Below are positions 3,077 through 34,028 of a DNA stretch of 34,880 nucleotides, in pieces (the stretch's first letter is position 1; each line of letters begins with the position of its first letter). The stretch comes from Clostridia bacterium (GTDB lineage Bacteria; Bacillota; Clostridia; Christensenellales; Aristaeellaceae), in NCBI GenBank assembly GCA_017436605.1, contig JAFSCW010000069.1:1-34880 (forward strand), read 5' to 3'. The notes below the pieces were generated by a model. That model searched no databases and was not told where the DNA came from. It saw only the letters and a program-made list of their open reading frames with translations. The position numbers and the translations under genes are program-made.

Positions 3077-4136
3077 ACTTCATCATGTACTTGTGAATCT
3101 GCTCGAGCACGGCCTGCGTGCCGTCTGCATCCTCCTGCGCGCTGAGCCGCTGGATCAGCAGATCGCGATCCTCCCACAGGGCATCGATGGCCGCAGCCAG
3201 TGACTGCGCGTTCATGTCGCTCTGGATCATCACATGCGCAAGCCCGCGGGCCTTGAGCGAGTTGGCATTGAGCACCTGATCGCCGCGTCCGCTATGATAG
3301 GGGATGAGCAGTGCGGGCTTTTTAAGCGCCATCAGCTCGGAAAGGGAATTCGAACCGGCACGAGAGAGAACGATATCGGCGCAGGCGAAGGCGTCCGGAA
3401 GCTCGGCAGAGAGGTATTCAAACTGCCTGTAGCCCGCCATGCTGTCAAGCTCGGGCTTGAGGTTGCCCTTGCCGCAGACATGCAGGACGTCGTATTTCTT
3501 GGTCAGCGCAGGAAGCGCTTCGCGAAGCGCGGCGTTGACCGTCTGCGCGCCGAGGGATCCGCCGATCATCATCAGAACAGGGCGCGTTCCGCTGAATCCG
3601 GCAAGCTGCAGGCCCTTCTCGCGGGAGCCGGAAAAAATCTGCGCGCGCAGCGGCGTGCCGGTCTGCACGCCCTTGCTGCCAAGGAGCTTGGCACATTCCG
3701 GGAAGGTCGTGCAGACGGCCTTGGCGAAGGGCTTGCAGAGCTTGTTGGCCAGTCCGGGCGTGATGTCGCTTTCATGCATGACGACGGGTACGCGGCAAAG
3801 CGCAGCGCCGACAACGACGGGCACGCTGACAAAGCCGCCCTTGGAAAAGACGATCGAAGGCTTCAGCCTGCGGATGATGCCGAAGCTCTGGAAAGCGCCT
3901 GCGATGACGCGGAAGGGATCAGTGAAATTCTTCCAGTCAAAATAGCGGCGCAGCTTGCCGGAGCTGACGGCGTGGTACGTGACGCCCGGCATGGATTCGA
4001 TGAGCGTGCGCTCAATGCCTGCCTTGGTTCCGATATAGTGAATCTCCCAGCCCTCCTCAAGCAGCAGCGGAATCAGCGCCTGATTCGGGGAAACATGACC
4101 GGCAGTGCCGCCGCCGGTCAGAACAATACGCTTCAC
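3075..4136 (-). CDS. murG: Undecaprenyldiphospho-muramoylpentapeptide beta-N-acetylglucosaminyltransferase (MurG)
   Basis: Transfers GlcNAc from UDP-GlcNAc onto lipid I to make lipid II on the inner face of the membrane, the last cytoplasmic step of peptidoglycan synthesis. The start is a GTG at 4136, with AAGGAGGT 6 bases upstream; the longer in-frame reading to 4169 runs back into the -10 box and is rejected. The product is 353 residues, the normal family length. The N-terminal VLTGGGTAGHVSPN is the MurG glycine-rich signature. FSKGGFVSVPVV and MHESDITPGLANK are the lipid-acceptor side, and GGSLGAQTVN, LSRAGSNSLSELMAL and HSGRGDQVLNA form the UDP-GlcNAc site (the family norm there is ...GDHQ..N). 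It lies outside any division/cell-wall gene cluster, as a monocistron with a strong promoter and a terminator. Confidence 0.96.
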   Translation of the reverse strand: MKRIVLTGGGTAGHVSPNQALIPLLLEEGWEIHYIGTKAGIERTLIESMPGVTYHAVSSGKLRRYFDWKNFTDPFRVIAGAFQSFGIIRRLKPSIVFSKGGFVSVPVVVGAALCRVPVVMHESDITPGLANKLCKPFAKAVCTTFPECAKLLGSKGVQTGTPLRAQIFSGSREKGLQLAGFSGTRPVLMMIGGSLGAQTVNAALREALPALTKKYDVLHVCGKGNLKPELDSMAGYRQFEYLSAELPDAFACADIVLSRAGSNSLSELMALKKPALLIPYHSGRGDQVLNANSLKARGLAHVMIQSDMNAQSLAAAIDALWEDRDLLIQRLSAQEDADGTQAVLEQIHKYMMK

Positions 4137-4168
4137 AAAAGGACCTCCTTGTCTGGTCGTTTGGATCA

Positions 4169-4197
4169 ATTATACCAACTGCGCTGTGCAAGGTCAA
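4169..4197 (-). promoter_or_regulatory. Sigma-A promoter of murG
   Basis: On the reverse strand: TTGACC (4197-4192), 17-bp spacer, TATAAT (4174-4169). TGG directly before the -10 box gives an extended -10 as well. Confidence 0.88.
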
Positions 4198-4330
4198 GGC
4201 GGCGAAAGAAGGTTTTGTGGAAAGCGCCGCATGGTAGGGGTAACAAGCGCGGATTGTATCTGCATATTTTGTCGCAAGCAGACAAAAATGACGCGATGAA
4301 TAAAGTTTTGATTATTTCTATGAAAAAATG

Positions 4331-28165: not shown

Positions 28166-28247
28166 GGTCGATAAATTGCTTTATCTCTCATAATTAAAAA
28201 TCGGGCCGACGAAGAACCTGTTTGTCGGTTTGAAGGGAGAAAAGCTT

Positions 28248-29234
28248 ATGAATATAGAAAAGATGATCGGTGTCTACGTCGAATACTGCCGCAGTGAAAT
28301 GCTGCGTCCAAAGACCATAGAGGCCTATAAGCAAGGGCTATATCTCTTCGCGGCATGGCTCAAGGAGAATGAAAACGTCACAGACTTTGAAGCCGTGAAA
28401 GACGTCATGATCCGGCGATACATGCTTGATCTGCAGAACAGAGGCAAGTATACATTCTCCGCAGACAGAAAGCAGGAGATGATCAACTGTCCGACGCATC
28501 GCCGTGATTATAATCAGAAGCTCAGCAACATCACGATCAACAATTATCTCCGATATATCCGCACGTTCTTTGCATGGCTGCTTGAGATGGAGTATATCGA
28601 GAAGACACCCATGAAGAAAGTGAGGCTGCTCCCGCAGGAACGGCCTCCCAAAGAATATTTGGAAGATTATGAGGTCAAGCGGCTGCTGCAAGTGCTGAAC
28701 ACAGATTTGTTTGTGGAGTACCGGGACAAGACGGTCATGATGATTATGCTTGACAGCGGCACAAGGTTGGGAGAGACACTTTCGGTTGAAACGGAGCAGA
28801 TTGATTTGATGGAGAAGTCGATCCTGCTGCCTGCTGAAAAGACAAAAGGCCGCAAGACGCGGACAGTGTTCTTTTCTCAGAAAACAGAAAAGGAACTGCG
28901 TAAGTGGCTCAAATACAAAGAGCGTTACTGCAGTTCCGATTATGCATTTCCGATCCGAAGCACTGGGCGGCCCATGACTGTTTCGCAGTATGGCACGAAT
29001 TTCAGAAAGTATGTGGTCAGGGCCGGGATTACGAAGAAGGTATCGCCGCATACTCTGAGAAATAACTTTGCAAAGCGCTGCTTGCTCAGCGGCATGGACA
29101 TCTACACACTTAGCCGCATTCTAGGTCATTCAAGTGTGAAGGTGACGGAGAGAAACTATCTTGACGTCAAGGATGAGGAATTGAAGGAGAAGTATCTGGA
29201 GCATAGTCCGATCAACAATATTTATCATAGGTGA
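28248..29234 (+). CDS. Tyrosine recombinase (phage integrase family)
   Basis: A 328-residue site-specific recombinase of the XerC/D-integrase superfamily. The ATG at 28248 has AGGGAG 8-9 bases upstream, behind a CCGAC/GTCGG hairpin (28205-28227). Residues 5-115 are the SAM-like core-binding domain, followed by a linker rich in E/K/P (RPPKEYLEDYEVKRLLQ). The catalytic set is complete: R173 in SGTRLGE, K200 in AEKTKGRKTR, H268-x2-R271 in SPHTLRNNF, H294 in LGHSSVKVT and nucleophile Y304. It therefore should be active. The length and absence of an arm-type N-domain suggest a Xer-like or small-element integrase. Codon use is lower in GC than the chromosomal genes. It is followed by a terminator and by a set of 22-bp-spaced repeats. 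Confidence 0.92.
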   Translation: MNIEKMIGVYVEYCRSEMLRPKTIEAYKQGLYLFAAWLKENENVTDFEAVKDVMIRRYMLDLQNRGKYTFSADRKQEMINCPTHRRDYNQKLSNITINNYLRYIRTFFAWLLEMEYIEKTPMKKVRLLPQERPPKEYLEDYEVKRLLQVLNTDLFVEYRDKTVMMIMLDSGTRLGETLSVETEQIDLMEKSILLPAEKTKGRKTRTVFFSQKTEKELRKWLKYKERYCSSDYAFPIRSTGRPMTVSQYGTNFRKYVVRAGITKKVSPHTLRNNFAKRCLLSGMDIYTLSRILGHSSVKVTERNYLDVKDEELKEKYLEHSPINNIYHR

Positions 29235-29577: not shown

Positions 29578-30066
29578 ATGACTACCATCCAGATTAACCA
29601 CAAGAACAGCACCATCGAGATGACCAAAAAGTTCTACACCGAATCCTGTAAGTACGGTTCGGAAGCGTACAAGGCGCTTCAGGAAGTCCGCCGCGATTAT
29701 CCCGGTTATAAGCCGGTCGTTGCTAAGACCAAGAAGAGCGGCACGAGCGACCCTTTCAAGGGCCTGAACTACGAGTACATGGAACTCTACATTATGAAGC
29801 ATGACGATGAAGAGCAGAGCATCATGGCTGAATTCAAGATGCTACGTGCAGAGGATGATTTGTCTCTGGCGATGGATGCGGAGTCGGAATCCTATCTGAC
29901 GATTCGCAACTGGTTCCTTGAGCAGTATCCGGCAGTCCGCGAGTTCCATGAGAAGCGTGAACAGGTAGTCGGCAATATCCGTATGAAGAAGGAAGCGGAA
30001 AGACTGGCGAGGCTGGAGGCTGCGAAGAACGCCCGCCGTGAAAAGCTGCTGGCCCTGATTGCGTAA
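29578..30066 (+). CDS. Protein of unknown family, first of a tandem paralog pair (A)
   Basis: A 162-residue soluble protein I do not recognise. The ATG at 29578 has GAGG about 8 bases upstream. The N-terminus reads IQINHKNSTIEMTKKF, a probable beta-hairpin, followed by a helical core: EAYKALQEVRRDYPGYKPV (about 29-47), FKGLNYEYMELYIMKH (about 60-75) and YLTIRNWFLEQYPAV (about 106-120). The last ~40 residues (MKKEAERLARLEAAKNARREK) form a basic helix that its paralog lacks. There are no membrane segments, signal peptide or catalytic motif. The same three core motifs recur in the gene 31 bases downstream, so the pair arose by tandem duplication. It stands in a recombinase island with its own promoter and a possible operator. 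Confidence 0.8.
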   Translation: MTTIQINHKNSTIEMTKKFYTESCKYGSEAYKALQEVRRDYPGYKPVVAKTKKSGTSDPFKGLNYEYMELYIMKHDDEEQSIMAEFKMLRAEDDLSLAMDAESESYLTIRNWFLEQYPAVREFHEKREQVVGNIRMKKEAERLARLEAAKNARREKLLALIA

Positions 30067-30097
30067 CTGAGTGAGAGATAATAGGAGGATATGAATT

Positions 30098-30520
30098 ATG
30101 AAGAATACGCTGAAGCTGAATCATGAGAACCGCACCATCGTGATGGACCGCACGTTTGCCAAGCGCTCTGAGAATACCCGCAGTGAGGAATATGCGCATC
30201 TTCAGCAGGTTCGTCAGGACTATCCGACGTATGAGGTAATCAGGCGTCAGATTAGGACGAATCCCAAGAAGGAAAGCTACAAGGGCCTGACCTATGAATA
30301 CATGGAGGACTATATCCTGACCCATGGCAGCGCGGAAGACATCCGAAAGAATCTGGCAGAATATGAAGAACTGCTTCTGTTGTCCGAGTGCCATAGCCGC
30401 TCCCGTCGCTATCCGGCTATTAAACGTTGGTTCTTGGAGATGTATCCGGAAGTTGTTACCTACGGTTCTGCTGAAGAGAGGCCGAAGATTCTTCAGATTG
30501 GAGAAAAGAGAGCATCTTGA
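30098..30520 (+). CDS. Protein of unknown family, second of a tandem paralog pair (B)
   Basis: A 140-residue paralog of the preceding gene. The ATG at 30098 has TAGGAGGA about 8 bases upstream; the out-of-frame ATG at 30091 gives only a short stop-bounded read. Matching segments are LKLNHENRTIVMDRTF (3-18), EEYAHLQQVRQDYPTYEV (30-47), YKGLTYEYMEDYILTH (60-75) and YPAIKRWFLEMYPEVV (105-120). By eye about a third or more of positions are identical, with near-equal spacing, so both share one fold. The shared sets NH-x-N-x-TI-x-M, DYP-x-Y, KGL-x-YEYME-x-YI and I-x-x-WFLE-x-YP define the family. It is co-transcribed with gene A and ends at a strong terminator. Confidence 0.8.
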   Translation: MKNTLKLNHENRTIVMDRTFAKRSENTRSEEYAHLQQVRQDYPTYEVIRRQIRTNPKKESYKGLTYEYMEDYILTHGSAEDIRKNLAEYEELLLLSECHSRSRRYPAIKRWFLEMYPEVVTYGSAEERPKILQIGEKRAS

Positions 30521-30647: not shown

Positions 30648-30762
30648 TGATTTGTACGTGCTGTTTATTTAGCGCTTTGTGACATATTCTGCTTTATCTG
30701 TTGACGTTCATTTGATTTACATGATAGTTTTCGAGTTGAAAAGTGGAGTGTAATCATGTATA
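30648..30762 (+). repeat. 115-bp regulatory leader, copy 1 (upstream of the alpha/beta hydrolase)
   Basis: Matches 31522-31636 without gaps, with 8 differences (about 93% identity). It contains a conserved TTTAGCGCTTTG block (a LacI/CcpA-like centre), a TTGACG -35 box and an extended -10. It ends just before the ribosome-binding site of the hydrolase. Confidence 0.93.
30701..30730 (+). promoter_or_regulatory. Promoter in leader copy 1
   Basis: TTGACG (30701-30706), 18-bp spacer, TAGTTT (30725-30730) preceded by TGA (extended -10). Both boxes are identical in copy 2. Confidence 0.55.
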
Positions 30763-30776
30763 GAGGAGGTATAAAC

Positions 30777-31445
30777 ATGGAAGAAAGAGTTTTTGAAGGA
30801 CTGGAATATCTGATTTCGTATCCGAAAGGATTTCAGGAAGACAAGGAGTATCCGTTGGTGATCTTTTTGCACGGTGCTGGAGCCCGTGGAAAAACAATGG
30901 AGCGTCTGCGAAAGACTTCCAGTGTTCAAAATCTTCTGAAACGGCAGGATACAAGAGGCTATATTCTTCTTGCACCCTTTTGCAAAAGAGGGGACTGGAA
31001 CGAATGGATGGCAATGCTGATCCGTTTAGTAGAAGTATATCGTGAGATTCCGTATATCGATGAAACACGTATCCATCTGACCGGGAACAGTATGGGTGGC
31101 TATGGGACTTGGACGCTTGCGACACTGTATCCCTATTGGTTTGCGTCCGTGATGCCGATTTGTGGTGGTGGCATTAGCGGATTTGCCAAGAACCTTGTGG
31201 GGCTTCCTATTCGCGCTTTTCATGGCTTACGTGACAAAAATATAGATCCAATCGAGAGCTTACAGATGGCCAAAGCGGTGAATTTGTTCGGCGGTCATGC
31301 TGAGCTGATCCTTTTCCCTGAACTTGAGCATAATTGCTGGGATGCGGTCTATTCTGACGAAAAAAACTACGATTGGTTGTTTTCCTTTACTGCCCGACCG
31401 GATGAATTCGTGATAGAGGAATTATCTGGTGCATACTACGGATAA
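30777..31445 (+). CDS. Alpha/beta hydrolase (carboxylesterase/dienelactone hydrolase-like)
   Basis: A 222-residue alpha/beta-fold hydrolase, probably an esterase; the substrate is unknown. The ATG at 30777 has GAGGAGGT 6 bases upstream; the in-frame ATG at 30756 lies before that site. The oxyanion strand reads PLVIFLHGAGARG (26-38). The nucleophile elbow is G-N-S105-M-G-G in IHLTGNSMGGYG. The acid is D153 or D157 in HGLRDKNIDP, and the base is H185 in FPELEHNCWD. The set matches prolyl-oligopeptidase/phospholipase-like esterases such as those with GNSMGG(Y)GT. No signal peptide, so it acts in the cytoplasm. It is lower in GC than chromosomal genes and is driven by leader copy 1. Confidence 0.87.
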   Translation: MEERVFEGLEYLISYPKGFQEDKEYPLVIFLHGAGARGKTMERLRKTSSVQNLLKRQDTRGYILLAPFCKRGDWNEWMAMLIRLVEVYREIPYIDETRIHLTGNSMGGYGTWTLATLYPYWFASVMPICGGGISGFAKNLVGLPIRAFHGLRDKNIDPIESLQMAKAVNLFGGHAELILFPELEHNCWDAVYSDEKNYDWLFSFTARPDEFVIEELSGAYYG

Positions 31446-31521
31446 AAAAGCGAGATGAAATAATCTGCATTATTTATTGACAGGTATCGTATTACCTAAC
31501 GAATGGGTATAGTACAATAAT

Positions 31522-31636
31522 TGATTTGTACGTGCTGTTTATTTAGCGCTTTGTGACATGTTCTGCTTGATCTGTTGACGCTCATCTGATTTGCATGATA
31601 GTTTTCGAGTTGAAAAGTGGAATGTAATTATGTGTA
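31522..31636 (+). repeat. 115-bp regulatory leader, copy 2 (upstream of the G1P dehydrogenase)
   Basis: Direct repeat of 30648-30762, offset by exactly 874 bp. Most of the 8 differences are transitions. Confidence 0.93.
31575..31604 (+). promoter_or_regulatory. Promoter in leader copy 2
   Basis: TTGACG (31575-31580), 18-bp spacer, TAGTTT (31599-31604) with TGA before it. Confidence 0.55.
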
Positions 31637-31673: not shown

Positions 31674-32987
31674 ATGGAACTTCAATGGAGTAAGAAGGTT
31701 TGTGCATGTGGCAAGGCACATGTGACGACGGTGGATGAAGTGATCGTTGGCTACGGAGTGATCAGCCAGATTCCGCGATTGCTTGAGAAATACGGAAGCA
31801 AAAAGCCATTCATTCTTGCAGACTGCAATACATATCAGGCGGCGGGAAAGTGCATATGTCAGATGCTTGCAGATAACGGCATTGCCTATGGTAGCTATGT
31901 CTTCCCGCAGACGGCGCTTGAGCCGGACGAAGCGGCTGTCGGCGCTGCGGTTATGCATTTTGATCATAGCTGCGATCTGATCATCGGCGTGGGTTCCGGC
32001 GTCATCAACGATATCGGCAAGATCCTCAGCCGCACGTCCGGCAGGAAGTACATCATCGTTGCGACGGCCCCCTCGATGGACGGCTATGCTTCGGCGACGT
32101 CGTCCATGTCGATGGATGGTCTCAAGACGTCGCTGAATTCCCGCTGTGCGGATGTGATCATCGGCGATATCGATATCCTCAAGCATGCGCCGGAACACAT
32201 GCTCAAGGCGGGCCTTGGCGACATGCTGGCCAAATACGTGAGCATCGCCGAATGGCGCATTGCGCATCTGATCACAGGCGAATACTACTGCGAGACGGTG
32301 GCGGATCTGGTGCGCACGGCGCTGAAAAAGTGCGTGGATAACGCCGAAGGGCTGCTGCGCAGGGACGATGCGGCGATTGAAGCGGTCTTCGAGGGACTTG
32401 TGATCGGCGGCGTGGCGATGGCCTATGCGGGCGTGTCCCGTCCGGCTTCGGGCGTAGAGCATTATTTCTCGCACGTCTGGGACATGCGCGGACTGGAGTT
32501 CGGCACGCAGGTCGATCTGCACGGCATCCAGTGTGCTGTGGGTACGCTGCTTGCCGCGCAGCTGTATGAGCATATCCGTACATATAAGCCCGATGAAGAA
32601 AGGGCGAAAGCATTTGTGCAGGCGTTTTCCTATGATGCATGGAAGGAAGAGCTGCGCGCGTTCCTCGGCAAGGGCGCGGAGGCAATGATCGCGCTGGAAG
32701 CCAAAGAGGGCAAGTATGATCCCTGCGGACATGCTGCGCGCTATGGGATCATTGACGAGCATTGGGAGGACATTCTGAAGATTCTTGAGGAAGAGCTGCC
32801 TTCCGCCAAGGAGATCGAAAAGATCCTTGATACCATCGGCATCTGTGGTGATCCGCAGGTTCTTGGCGTCAGCAAGGCACAACAGAAGCTGTCCTTCCAG
32901 GCGACGAAGGATATCCGCGATAAGTATGTGCTCTCCCGCCTTGCGTGGGATCTGGGTATTTTAGACGAACTCTGTGATACCATCTGA
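31674..32987 (+). CDS. sn-glycerol-1-phosphate dehydrogenase (AraM/EgsA family)
   Basis: An NAD(P)H-dependent metal enzyme that reduces dihydroxyacetone phosphate to sn-glycerol-1-phosphate; in Bacillus the AraM product feeds G1P-linked prenyl lipids. The ATG at 31674 has AGGGGG about 8 bases upstream. The 437-residue product starts CxCGKAHVTTVDEVIVG, typical of the family. The nucleotide loop is LIIGVGSGVINDIGK (about 101-115), and ATAPSMDGYASATSSM is the family hallmark. Metal ligands are the D of GLGDMLAKY and the histidines in GVEHYFSHVW and VDLHGIQ. An extra C-terminal ~150 residues agree with AraM-type length. The first ~80 codons are less GC-rich than the rest. It is a monocistron driven by leader copy 2 and followed by a terminator. 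Confidence 0.92.
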   Translation: MELQWSKKVCACGKAHVTTVDEVIVGYGVISQIPRLLEKYGSKKPFILADCNTYQAAGKCICQMLADNGIAYGSYVFPQTALEPDEAAVGAAVMHFDHSCDLIIGVGSGVINDIGKILSRTSGRKYIIVATAPSMDGYASATSSMSMDGLKTSLNSRCADVIIGDIDILKHAPEHMLKAGLGDMLAKYVSIAEWRIAHLITGEYYCETVADLVRTALKKCVDNAEGLLRRDDAAIEAVFEGLVIGGVAMAYAGVSRPASGVEHYFSHVWDMRGLEFGTQVDLHGIQCAVGTLLAAQLYEHIRTYKPDEERAKAFVQAFSYDAWKEELRAFLGKGAEAMIALEAKEGKYDPCGHAARYGIIDEHWEDILKILEEELPSAKEIEKILDTIGICGDPQVLGVSKAQQKLSFQATKDIRDKYVLSRLAWDLGILDELCDTI

Positions 32988-33041: not shown

Positions 33042-33956
33042 TCACTTCTTCTTGCTGCGTTTGTATTCCGACGGCGTCATGCCGGTGCGCGCGCGGAAGG
33101 CATTGATGAACGAGGACATGCTGTGGAAGCCGGAGGAATCAAAGGCGAAGGTGACGCTCTTGCTTTCCTTGAGCAGGTTCTTGGCGTAGTCCACCTTGCG
33201 GTTGACGAGGTATTCGGAGAGCTGGATATTGTAGTATTGCTTGAAGATCCTGCTGACGTACTCTCTGCTATAATAGAAATGCTGTGCAATTTCAGAAACC
33301 GTATTCAGCGTCTGGAAGTTGCAGTCGACGTACTCACGCAGCGCGCGCACGTTTTCAGGGATGTCTGCGATGCGGTTGCTGTTCACATCGGAGTGATTGG
33401 CAATCAGGTGAAACAGTTGGGTCACATGGCTGTAAGCCAGCAGTGCAGCGTCGTTTTCGTCCGCGCGCAGGACAGATTTCAGCTTTTCCAGCAGATAGTA
33501 GAATTCTGCACGGTACTGCGGCTTGATGTGATGGAAGGAGGCGTGTTTCTCTGCAAAGAATGCAGGGAGCGCTAAAATATCCAGCGAGGAGAAAAACTGC
33601 GGGGAGAAATAGAACACATAGCGCTCGTAGGGCCCAAGATCGAGCAGCCGCGCCGTGTGCATGCAGCCCGGCGGAACGAGGAGAATATCATCCTTGTGCG
33701 GCAGCATCTCCTGATCGTCGGAGATGTAGGAGATCTGCCCGGTGATGTAGATATCCATTTCAAAGAAACGATGGCTGTGCAGCTTTTCAGGGAACATGCT
33801 CGCGCTGTAATCCGTTCTTCTATGGGAGAAAACGAGATGCCTGCCGATATAGAAGTCCTCCCATCCGGTATAGTTGCGGTACTTTTGCAGCCCCGGTCGG
33901 ATCAGCGCTTCGGGCAGATAGCGGGATTCGATATGCTCCTGCAGATAGGTTTTCAC
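33042..33956 (-). CDS. AraC-family transcriptional regulator
   Basis: A 304-residue regulator with an N-terminal cupin ligand-binding domain and a C-terminal double helix-turn-helix. The start is taken as GTG 33956, which has TGAGGTGA upstream. The in-frame ATGs at 34001 and 33998 lack a ribosome-binding site. The cupin part includes HSHRFFEMDIYITG and DDILLVPPGCMH (about 60-100). The DNA-binding part (about 200-304) has VSEIAQHFYYSREYVSRIFKQYYN, then NRKVDYAKNLLKESKSVTFAFDSSGFHSMSSFINAFRARTGMTPSEYKR, the AraC signature. The second HTH reads VTFAFDSSGF where VTEIAFxxGF is usual, a mild deviation. It is divergent from the FAD oxidoreductase, the probable target. Members of this kind commonly sense sugars. 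Confidence 0.93.
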   Translation of the reverse strand: MKTYLQEHIESRYLPEALIRPGLQKYRNYTGWEDFYIGRHLVFSHRRTDYSASMFPEKLHSHRFFEMDIYITGQISYISDDQEMLPHKDDILLVPPGCMHTARLLDLGPYERYVFYFSPQFFSSLDILALPAFFAEKHASFHHIKPQYRAEFYYLLEKLKSVLRADENDAALLAYSHVTQLFHLIANHSDVNSNRIADIPENVRALREYVDCNFQTLNTVSEIAQHFYYSREYVSRIFKQYYNIQLSEYLVNRKVDYAKNLLKESKSVTFAFDSSGFHSMSSFINAFRARTGMTPSEYKRSKKK

Positions 33957-34028
33957 GGCAGTCACCTCAAAGAGTTCACAAATTCGAAATTGAATCATCA
34001 CATGACGATAAGATTTTTCGTTCTGTGC

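Follow-up and report, generated by a model that had tools for sequence, protein, structure and literature searches.

Two unrelated genes of one locus, an alpha/beta hydrolase gene and a glycerol-1-phosphate dehydrogenase (G1PDH)-like gene, are preceded by almost the same sequence. How did they come to share a leader, and to which of them did it first belong? We addressed this question in a 34,880-bp stretch of DNA from a Clostridia bacterium, referred to here as the window. Leader copy A (30648-30762), before the hydrolase, and leader copy B (31522-31636), before the dehydrogenase, were identical at 107 of 115 positions (93%) without gaps (E ~7e-44 against the whole genome), in agreement with the roughly 93% given in a preliminary description of this DNA. 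The likeness ended sharply at both edges (30647/31521 on the left, 30762/31636 on the right). The longest exact run common to the two copies was 38 bp, and seven of the eight differences were transitions. The copies are thus 115-bp direct repeats; the 874 bp previously given as the length of the repeats is their period. The two coding regions were as dissimilar as had been claimed: one falls in the alpha/beta hydrolase family and the other in Fe-ADH_2/G1PDH, which are unrelated. The leaders, their promoter elements, both genes and the spacer between them all lie on the + strand. The 7% divergence of the leaders suggests that the arrangement has lasted.

The preliminary description proposed a search of the genome for further copies, with copies in front of many random genes pointing to a mobile repeat. 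No such dispersal was seen. The assembly (2.65 Mb, 147 contigs, ~90% complete) contained only the two adjacent copies, and the next-best match was at chance level (28 bp, E 0.65). This match, upstream of an mraZ-like gene (C34), was judged to be chance, as was a 31-bp match inside coding-like sequence in G002. A MITE-like or att-like leader that mobilises the hydrolase as a cassette between its copies would fit a foreign gene bounded by direct repeats, and a tyrosine recombinase gene does lie 1.4 kb upstream. However, neither the order sample nor phages nor plasmids contained a match to the whole leader, and searches of viral contigs found neither its conserved core pattern nor relatives of the hydrolase or the dehydrogenase protein. 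In the congener G003, a single leader stands before the dehydrogenase. The recombinase gene follows spo0A in G005, G007 and G009, where the hydrolase was not found, and the conserved blocks of the leader resemble parts of a promoter. Copy number and distribution together make a mobile repeat or att site very improbable.

We then examined the leaders for promoter elements. Each carries a putative promoter, TTGACG-N16-GATAGT, at 30701-30728 in copy A and 31575-31602 in copy B, with its ATCTGTTGAC and CATGATAG blocks kept in G003. The TTGACG -35 element reported in the preliminary description is therefore present; GATAGT is not the extended -10 described there, because no TG directly precedes it. 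Upstream of the -35 element, a CGCTTTGTGACA block (30673-30684 in A, 31547-31558 in B) was identical at 12 of 12 positions in A, B and G003, making it a candidate regulator site. The longer block noted earlier, TTTAGCGCTTTG, does occur in the leader; of this block, the relative conserves CGCTTTGTGACA. A three-way alignment of A, B and G003 retained TTA(G/T)CGCTTTGTGACA, TTCT, ATCTGTTGAC and GCATGATAG, with drifting spacers; in copy A, the first G of the GCATGATAG block is changed to A, giving ACATGATAG. None of the eight A/B differences fell inside CGCTTTGTGACA, TTGACG or GATAGT, which is not significant alone (rough chance ~0.15). In G003, the -35/-10 spacing is 15 and the -10 element is weakly conserved; because of this spacing, the -10 assignment is tentative. 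The promoter score by itself was not above chance (3 found vs 4.1 expected in a simple promoter scan), and it is the conservation in G003 that argues for promoter activity of the leaders.

The leaders were also considered as cis-regulatory RNAs, such as a riboswitch or T-box. A search against Rfam at E<=1 gave a single sub-threshold match, outside the leaders, and the fold z-scores of the two leaders were -0.99 and 0.29, so an RNA leader was rejected. At the presumed transcription start, both leaders contain a TTTTC-N5-GAAAA inverted repeat (30728-30742 and 31602-31616). In G003, two of its five pairs are changed on both sides and still paired, and one pair is broken, which is too little to claim an operator.

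To which gene the leader belonged was examined in 28 congeners. A recognisable leader was found only in G003 (77% over 65 bp), where it lies directly upstream of an orthologue of the dehydrogenase (91% aa over 363 residues). The region around the dehydrogenase ribosome-binding site (RBS), GCAAAGGGGG, is likewise common to G003 and absent from leader A. Because the G003 leader precedes the orthologue, its blocks are kept and the RBS region is shared, the leader is, judging from this single comparison, native to the dehydrogenase; the promoter would be ancestral to that gene, as in promoter capture. Among the seven A/B differences that could be scored, G003 agreed with B at four, with A at two and with neither at one, a slight lean toward copy B as the older form.

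The dehydrogenase gene (31674-32987) encodes a 437-aa protein with an Fe-ADH_2 domain. Its best solved relatives were G1PDHs, namely PDB 9h4x (E 2.5e-42), 5fb3 and 4rgq, so in domain and closest structures it resembles glycerol-1-phosphate dehydrogenase (EgsA/AraM family). However, it scored 193.6 bits with the NCBIfam G1PDH model NF002022, below the curated cut-off of 413 and short of equivalog level. We therefore call it G1PDH-like only.

The G003 locus bears on another possible origin of the repeat, in which the whole leader-dehydrogenase unit was duplicated in tandem and the hydrolase then replaced the first dehydrogenase copy. At a single G003 locus the dehydrogenase gene occurs twice: an FGGY kinase gene cuts off the 3' end of the orthologue behind the leader, and a complete second copy lies downstream. 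This suggests that the locus tolerates such changes. However, the second G003 copy has no leader. In the window, the stretch between the leaders showed no recognisable remnant of a dehydrogenase gene; it is donor-like to 31461, and the remaining 60 bp (31462-31521), a spacer between a broken terminator and leader B, had no significant match in the 28 congeners. Such a replacement of a duplicated dehydrogenase is accordingly rated as quite unlikely. Within the spacer, 31478-31498 holds TTGACAGGTATCGTATTACCT with an operator-like AGGTA/TACCT inverted repeat. In the G003 rearrangement (L042:5740-9944), the kinase gene that replaces the dehydrogenase 3' end has a promoter-like TTGCGT-N17-TATAAT of its own.

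We next traced the origin of the hydrolase. The gene (30777-31445) encodes a 222-aa esterase-like protein (Peptidase_S9/Abhydrolase_2). It was not found in the 28 congeners, nor, at E 1e-50, in a sample of 395 further genomes of the order. Six close relatives (68-79% aa) emerged when 84,980 species genomes were scanned; all lie in metagenome-assembled genomes (MAGs) with the labels Clostridia, Clostridiales or Oscillospiraceae, and goat or sheep gut is named for three of these. All six start at the equivalent of ATG 30777, which is most likely the start here as well; a start at 30756 is disfavoured. The leader was absent from all six, each of which has a different upstream region. The low GC and GC3 of the hydrolase gene (0.457/0.453 vs 0.559/0.674 for the dehydrogenase) also agree with a foreign origin, and the gene seems to derive from a gut bacterium of the Clostridia or Oscillospiraceae that is only distantly related. 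A Ka/Ks of ~0.13 against the nearest relative, L053, rough because synonymous sites are near saturation, indicates a functioning protein family under purifying selection.

Alignment with L053 (blastn) placed both junctions of the foreign segment. The similarity (78% at the DNA level) was confined to 30773-31461, with dissimilar flanks; it begins at the edge of the RBS and start codon and ends in the middle of a terminator hairpin. In L053 this hairpin is complete (AAAAAAGCGAGGTGAAATTCACCTCGCTTTT, -19.7 kcal/mol), whereas the window keeps AAAAAAGCGAGATGAAAT of it and then continues with other sequence (-5.0 kcal/mol). The putatively acquired segment (30763-31461) would thus consist of the RBS, the hydrolase coding sequence and the 5' half of a donor-type terminator hairpin. 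As the homologues resemble it in the coding region and no further upstream than the RBS, the gene stands here without its original promoter, and it seems to have arrived with neither a promoter nor a working terminator.

These data also bear on a different history, in which both genes already shared a regulon in a donor and the two, each with its leader, arrived together in a single foreign block. The leaders would then have been alike since long ago and kept so by gene conversion or selection. From ~30593 onward, after the terminator of the small ORFs upstream, the window is not syntenic with G003, G005 or G007, and none of the relatives searched yielded the downstream AraC-type neighbour; the whole block may therefore have moved. 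However, the leader is missing from 6/6 hydrolase homologues, the congener G003 has the leader and the dehydrogenase orthologue with no hydrolase, and the two genes differ in base composition. Arrival as one block is thus unlikely, if somewhat less so than the other alternatives.

The most probable explanation, to which we assign a probability of roughly 0.7, is promoter capture by local duplication following horizontal transfer. It draws on the repeat, its copy number, the nativity of the leader, the apparently foreign hydrolase and the two junctions, all read from the DNA itself. The same promoter sequence (93% over 115 bp) before a native and an unrelated gene is what promoter capture by duplication leaves behind. 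The duplication of a regulatory cassette proposed in the preliminary description is supported, with a leader apparently ancestral to the dehydrogenase and a seemingly foreign hydrolase that lacks its own promoter and half of its terminator.

In this process, the leader would represent the dehydrogenase promoter region, comprising the upstream CGCTTTGTGACA block, TTGACG, GATAGT and ~34 bases beyond. A promoterless hydrolase with its RBS and half a terminator would have landed upstream of the dehydrogenase, and a local duplication would have placed a second leader copy immediately before the hydrolase RBS. The copied piece would extend over the upstream block and the -35/-10 region into the first transcribed bases. 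As the dehydrogenase RBS was left out of it, the hydrolase would use its own RBS. The hydrolase would then be read from the copied promoter, while the dehydrogenase would keep its own copy. In a simple route, the gene would insert upstream of leader B, a tandem duplication would then double it together with the spacer and the leader, and the outer gene copy would be lost up to 30648. This last step is needed because A and B are preceded by different sequences. Template switching would give the same arrangement. None of the 28 congeners, which included no other strain of the species, showed a promoterless hydrolase or, at this site, a leader without interruption.

The identical promoter elements suggest one control over both genes, as was proposed earlier, and would tie the hydrolase to whatever controls the dehydrogenase, providing a lead on its role. 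Because no terminator-like site was predicted between the genes (31446-31521), hydrolase transcripts probably run into the dehydrogenase. The AraC-type gene next to the dehydrogenase (33042-34001) was considered as the cognate regulator. It was not found in 24 relatives searched, among them G003 (E<=1e-40), which retains the leader blocks, so this candidate is not supported.

Deletion of the hydrolase by recombination between the repeats, through the 38-bp identical run, is possible. Such recombination could in principle form a reversible or population-level switch, in which some cells drop the hydrolase and a hybrid leader remains before the dehydrogenase. The foreign hydrolase would then be kept as an optional, promoter-flanked cassette, a role for the leader pair that we regard as highly doubtful.

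Regulatory switching, or horizontal transfer of non-coding DNA, was reportedly described by Oren et al. 2014, which PMC11111574 cites. It resembles the present case in that the promoter region changes without the gene that follows it; there, however, strains swap the promoter of one and the same gene, whereas here a copy of the leader would have been placed before a new gene at its own locus. Li and Bock 2019 are said to have treated how silent or horizontally transferred genes capture promoters through tandem duplication or deletion. Promoter capture via tandem duplication has been established experimentally, including for horizontally transferred genes (TDAH, PMC11111574). That article cites E. 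coli citT, from the long-term evolution experiment, as a case of promoter capture. The likeness to citT, TDAH and the cases of Li and Bock lies in a gene without a working promoter that comes under a neighbour's native promoter by a local duplication, after which the native gene still has a promoter copy. In contrast to those selection experiments, the present case is a natural genome with a putative activation, and only the 115-bp promoter region is retained as a repeat, not the whole repeating unit. On this reading, the locus is a natural instance of an established process, and its junctions are unusually clear. As the expression of foreign genes after transfer has been studied mostly through laboratory selection, a natural event in which both junctions can be read, with the donor promoter lost, the donor terminator cut and the native promoter duplicated, is of particular value.

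Several further features of the surroundings were recorded. A goat-gut Clostridia MAG (L052) has two related hydrolase copies (609-1274 and 3967-4272) ~3.3 kb apart, the second at the edge of the sequence examined. To the left of the leader, the window shares with G005 and G007 spo0A, the tyrosine recombinase gene and two small paralogous ORFs. The recombinase gene (28230-29234) lies directly downstream of spo0A, as in G005 (99% aa), G007 (71%) and G009 (61%), and is missing from this position in several other congeners. This patchy distribution suggests that the site downstream of spo0A is used repeatedly or that the recombinase gene is being lost. The two small proteins (29578-30520), which are 37% identical and followed by a strong terminator, had no match in Pfam or NCBIfam. 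Synteny on the left ends at this terminator (30562 in G007, 30592 in G003). The ORFs and terminator recur elsewhere in G003, and the module occurs in different contexts in G003, G005 (where only part of the second ORF is left) and G007. With 98.6% identity in both G003 and G007, the second small ORF (30098-30520) exceeds its neighbours in conservation.
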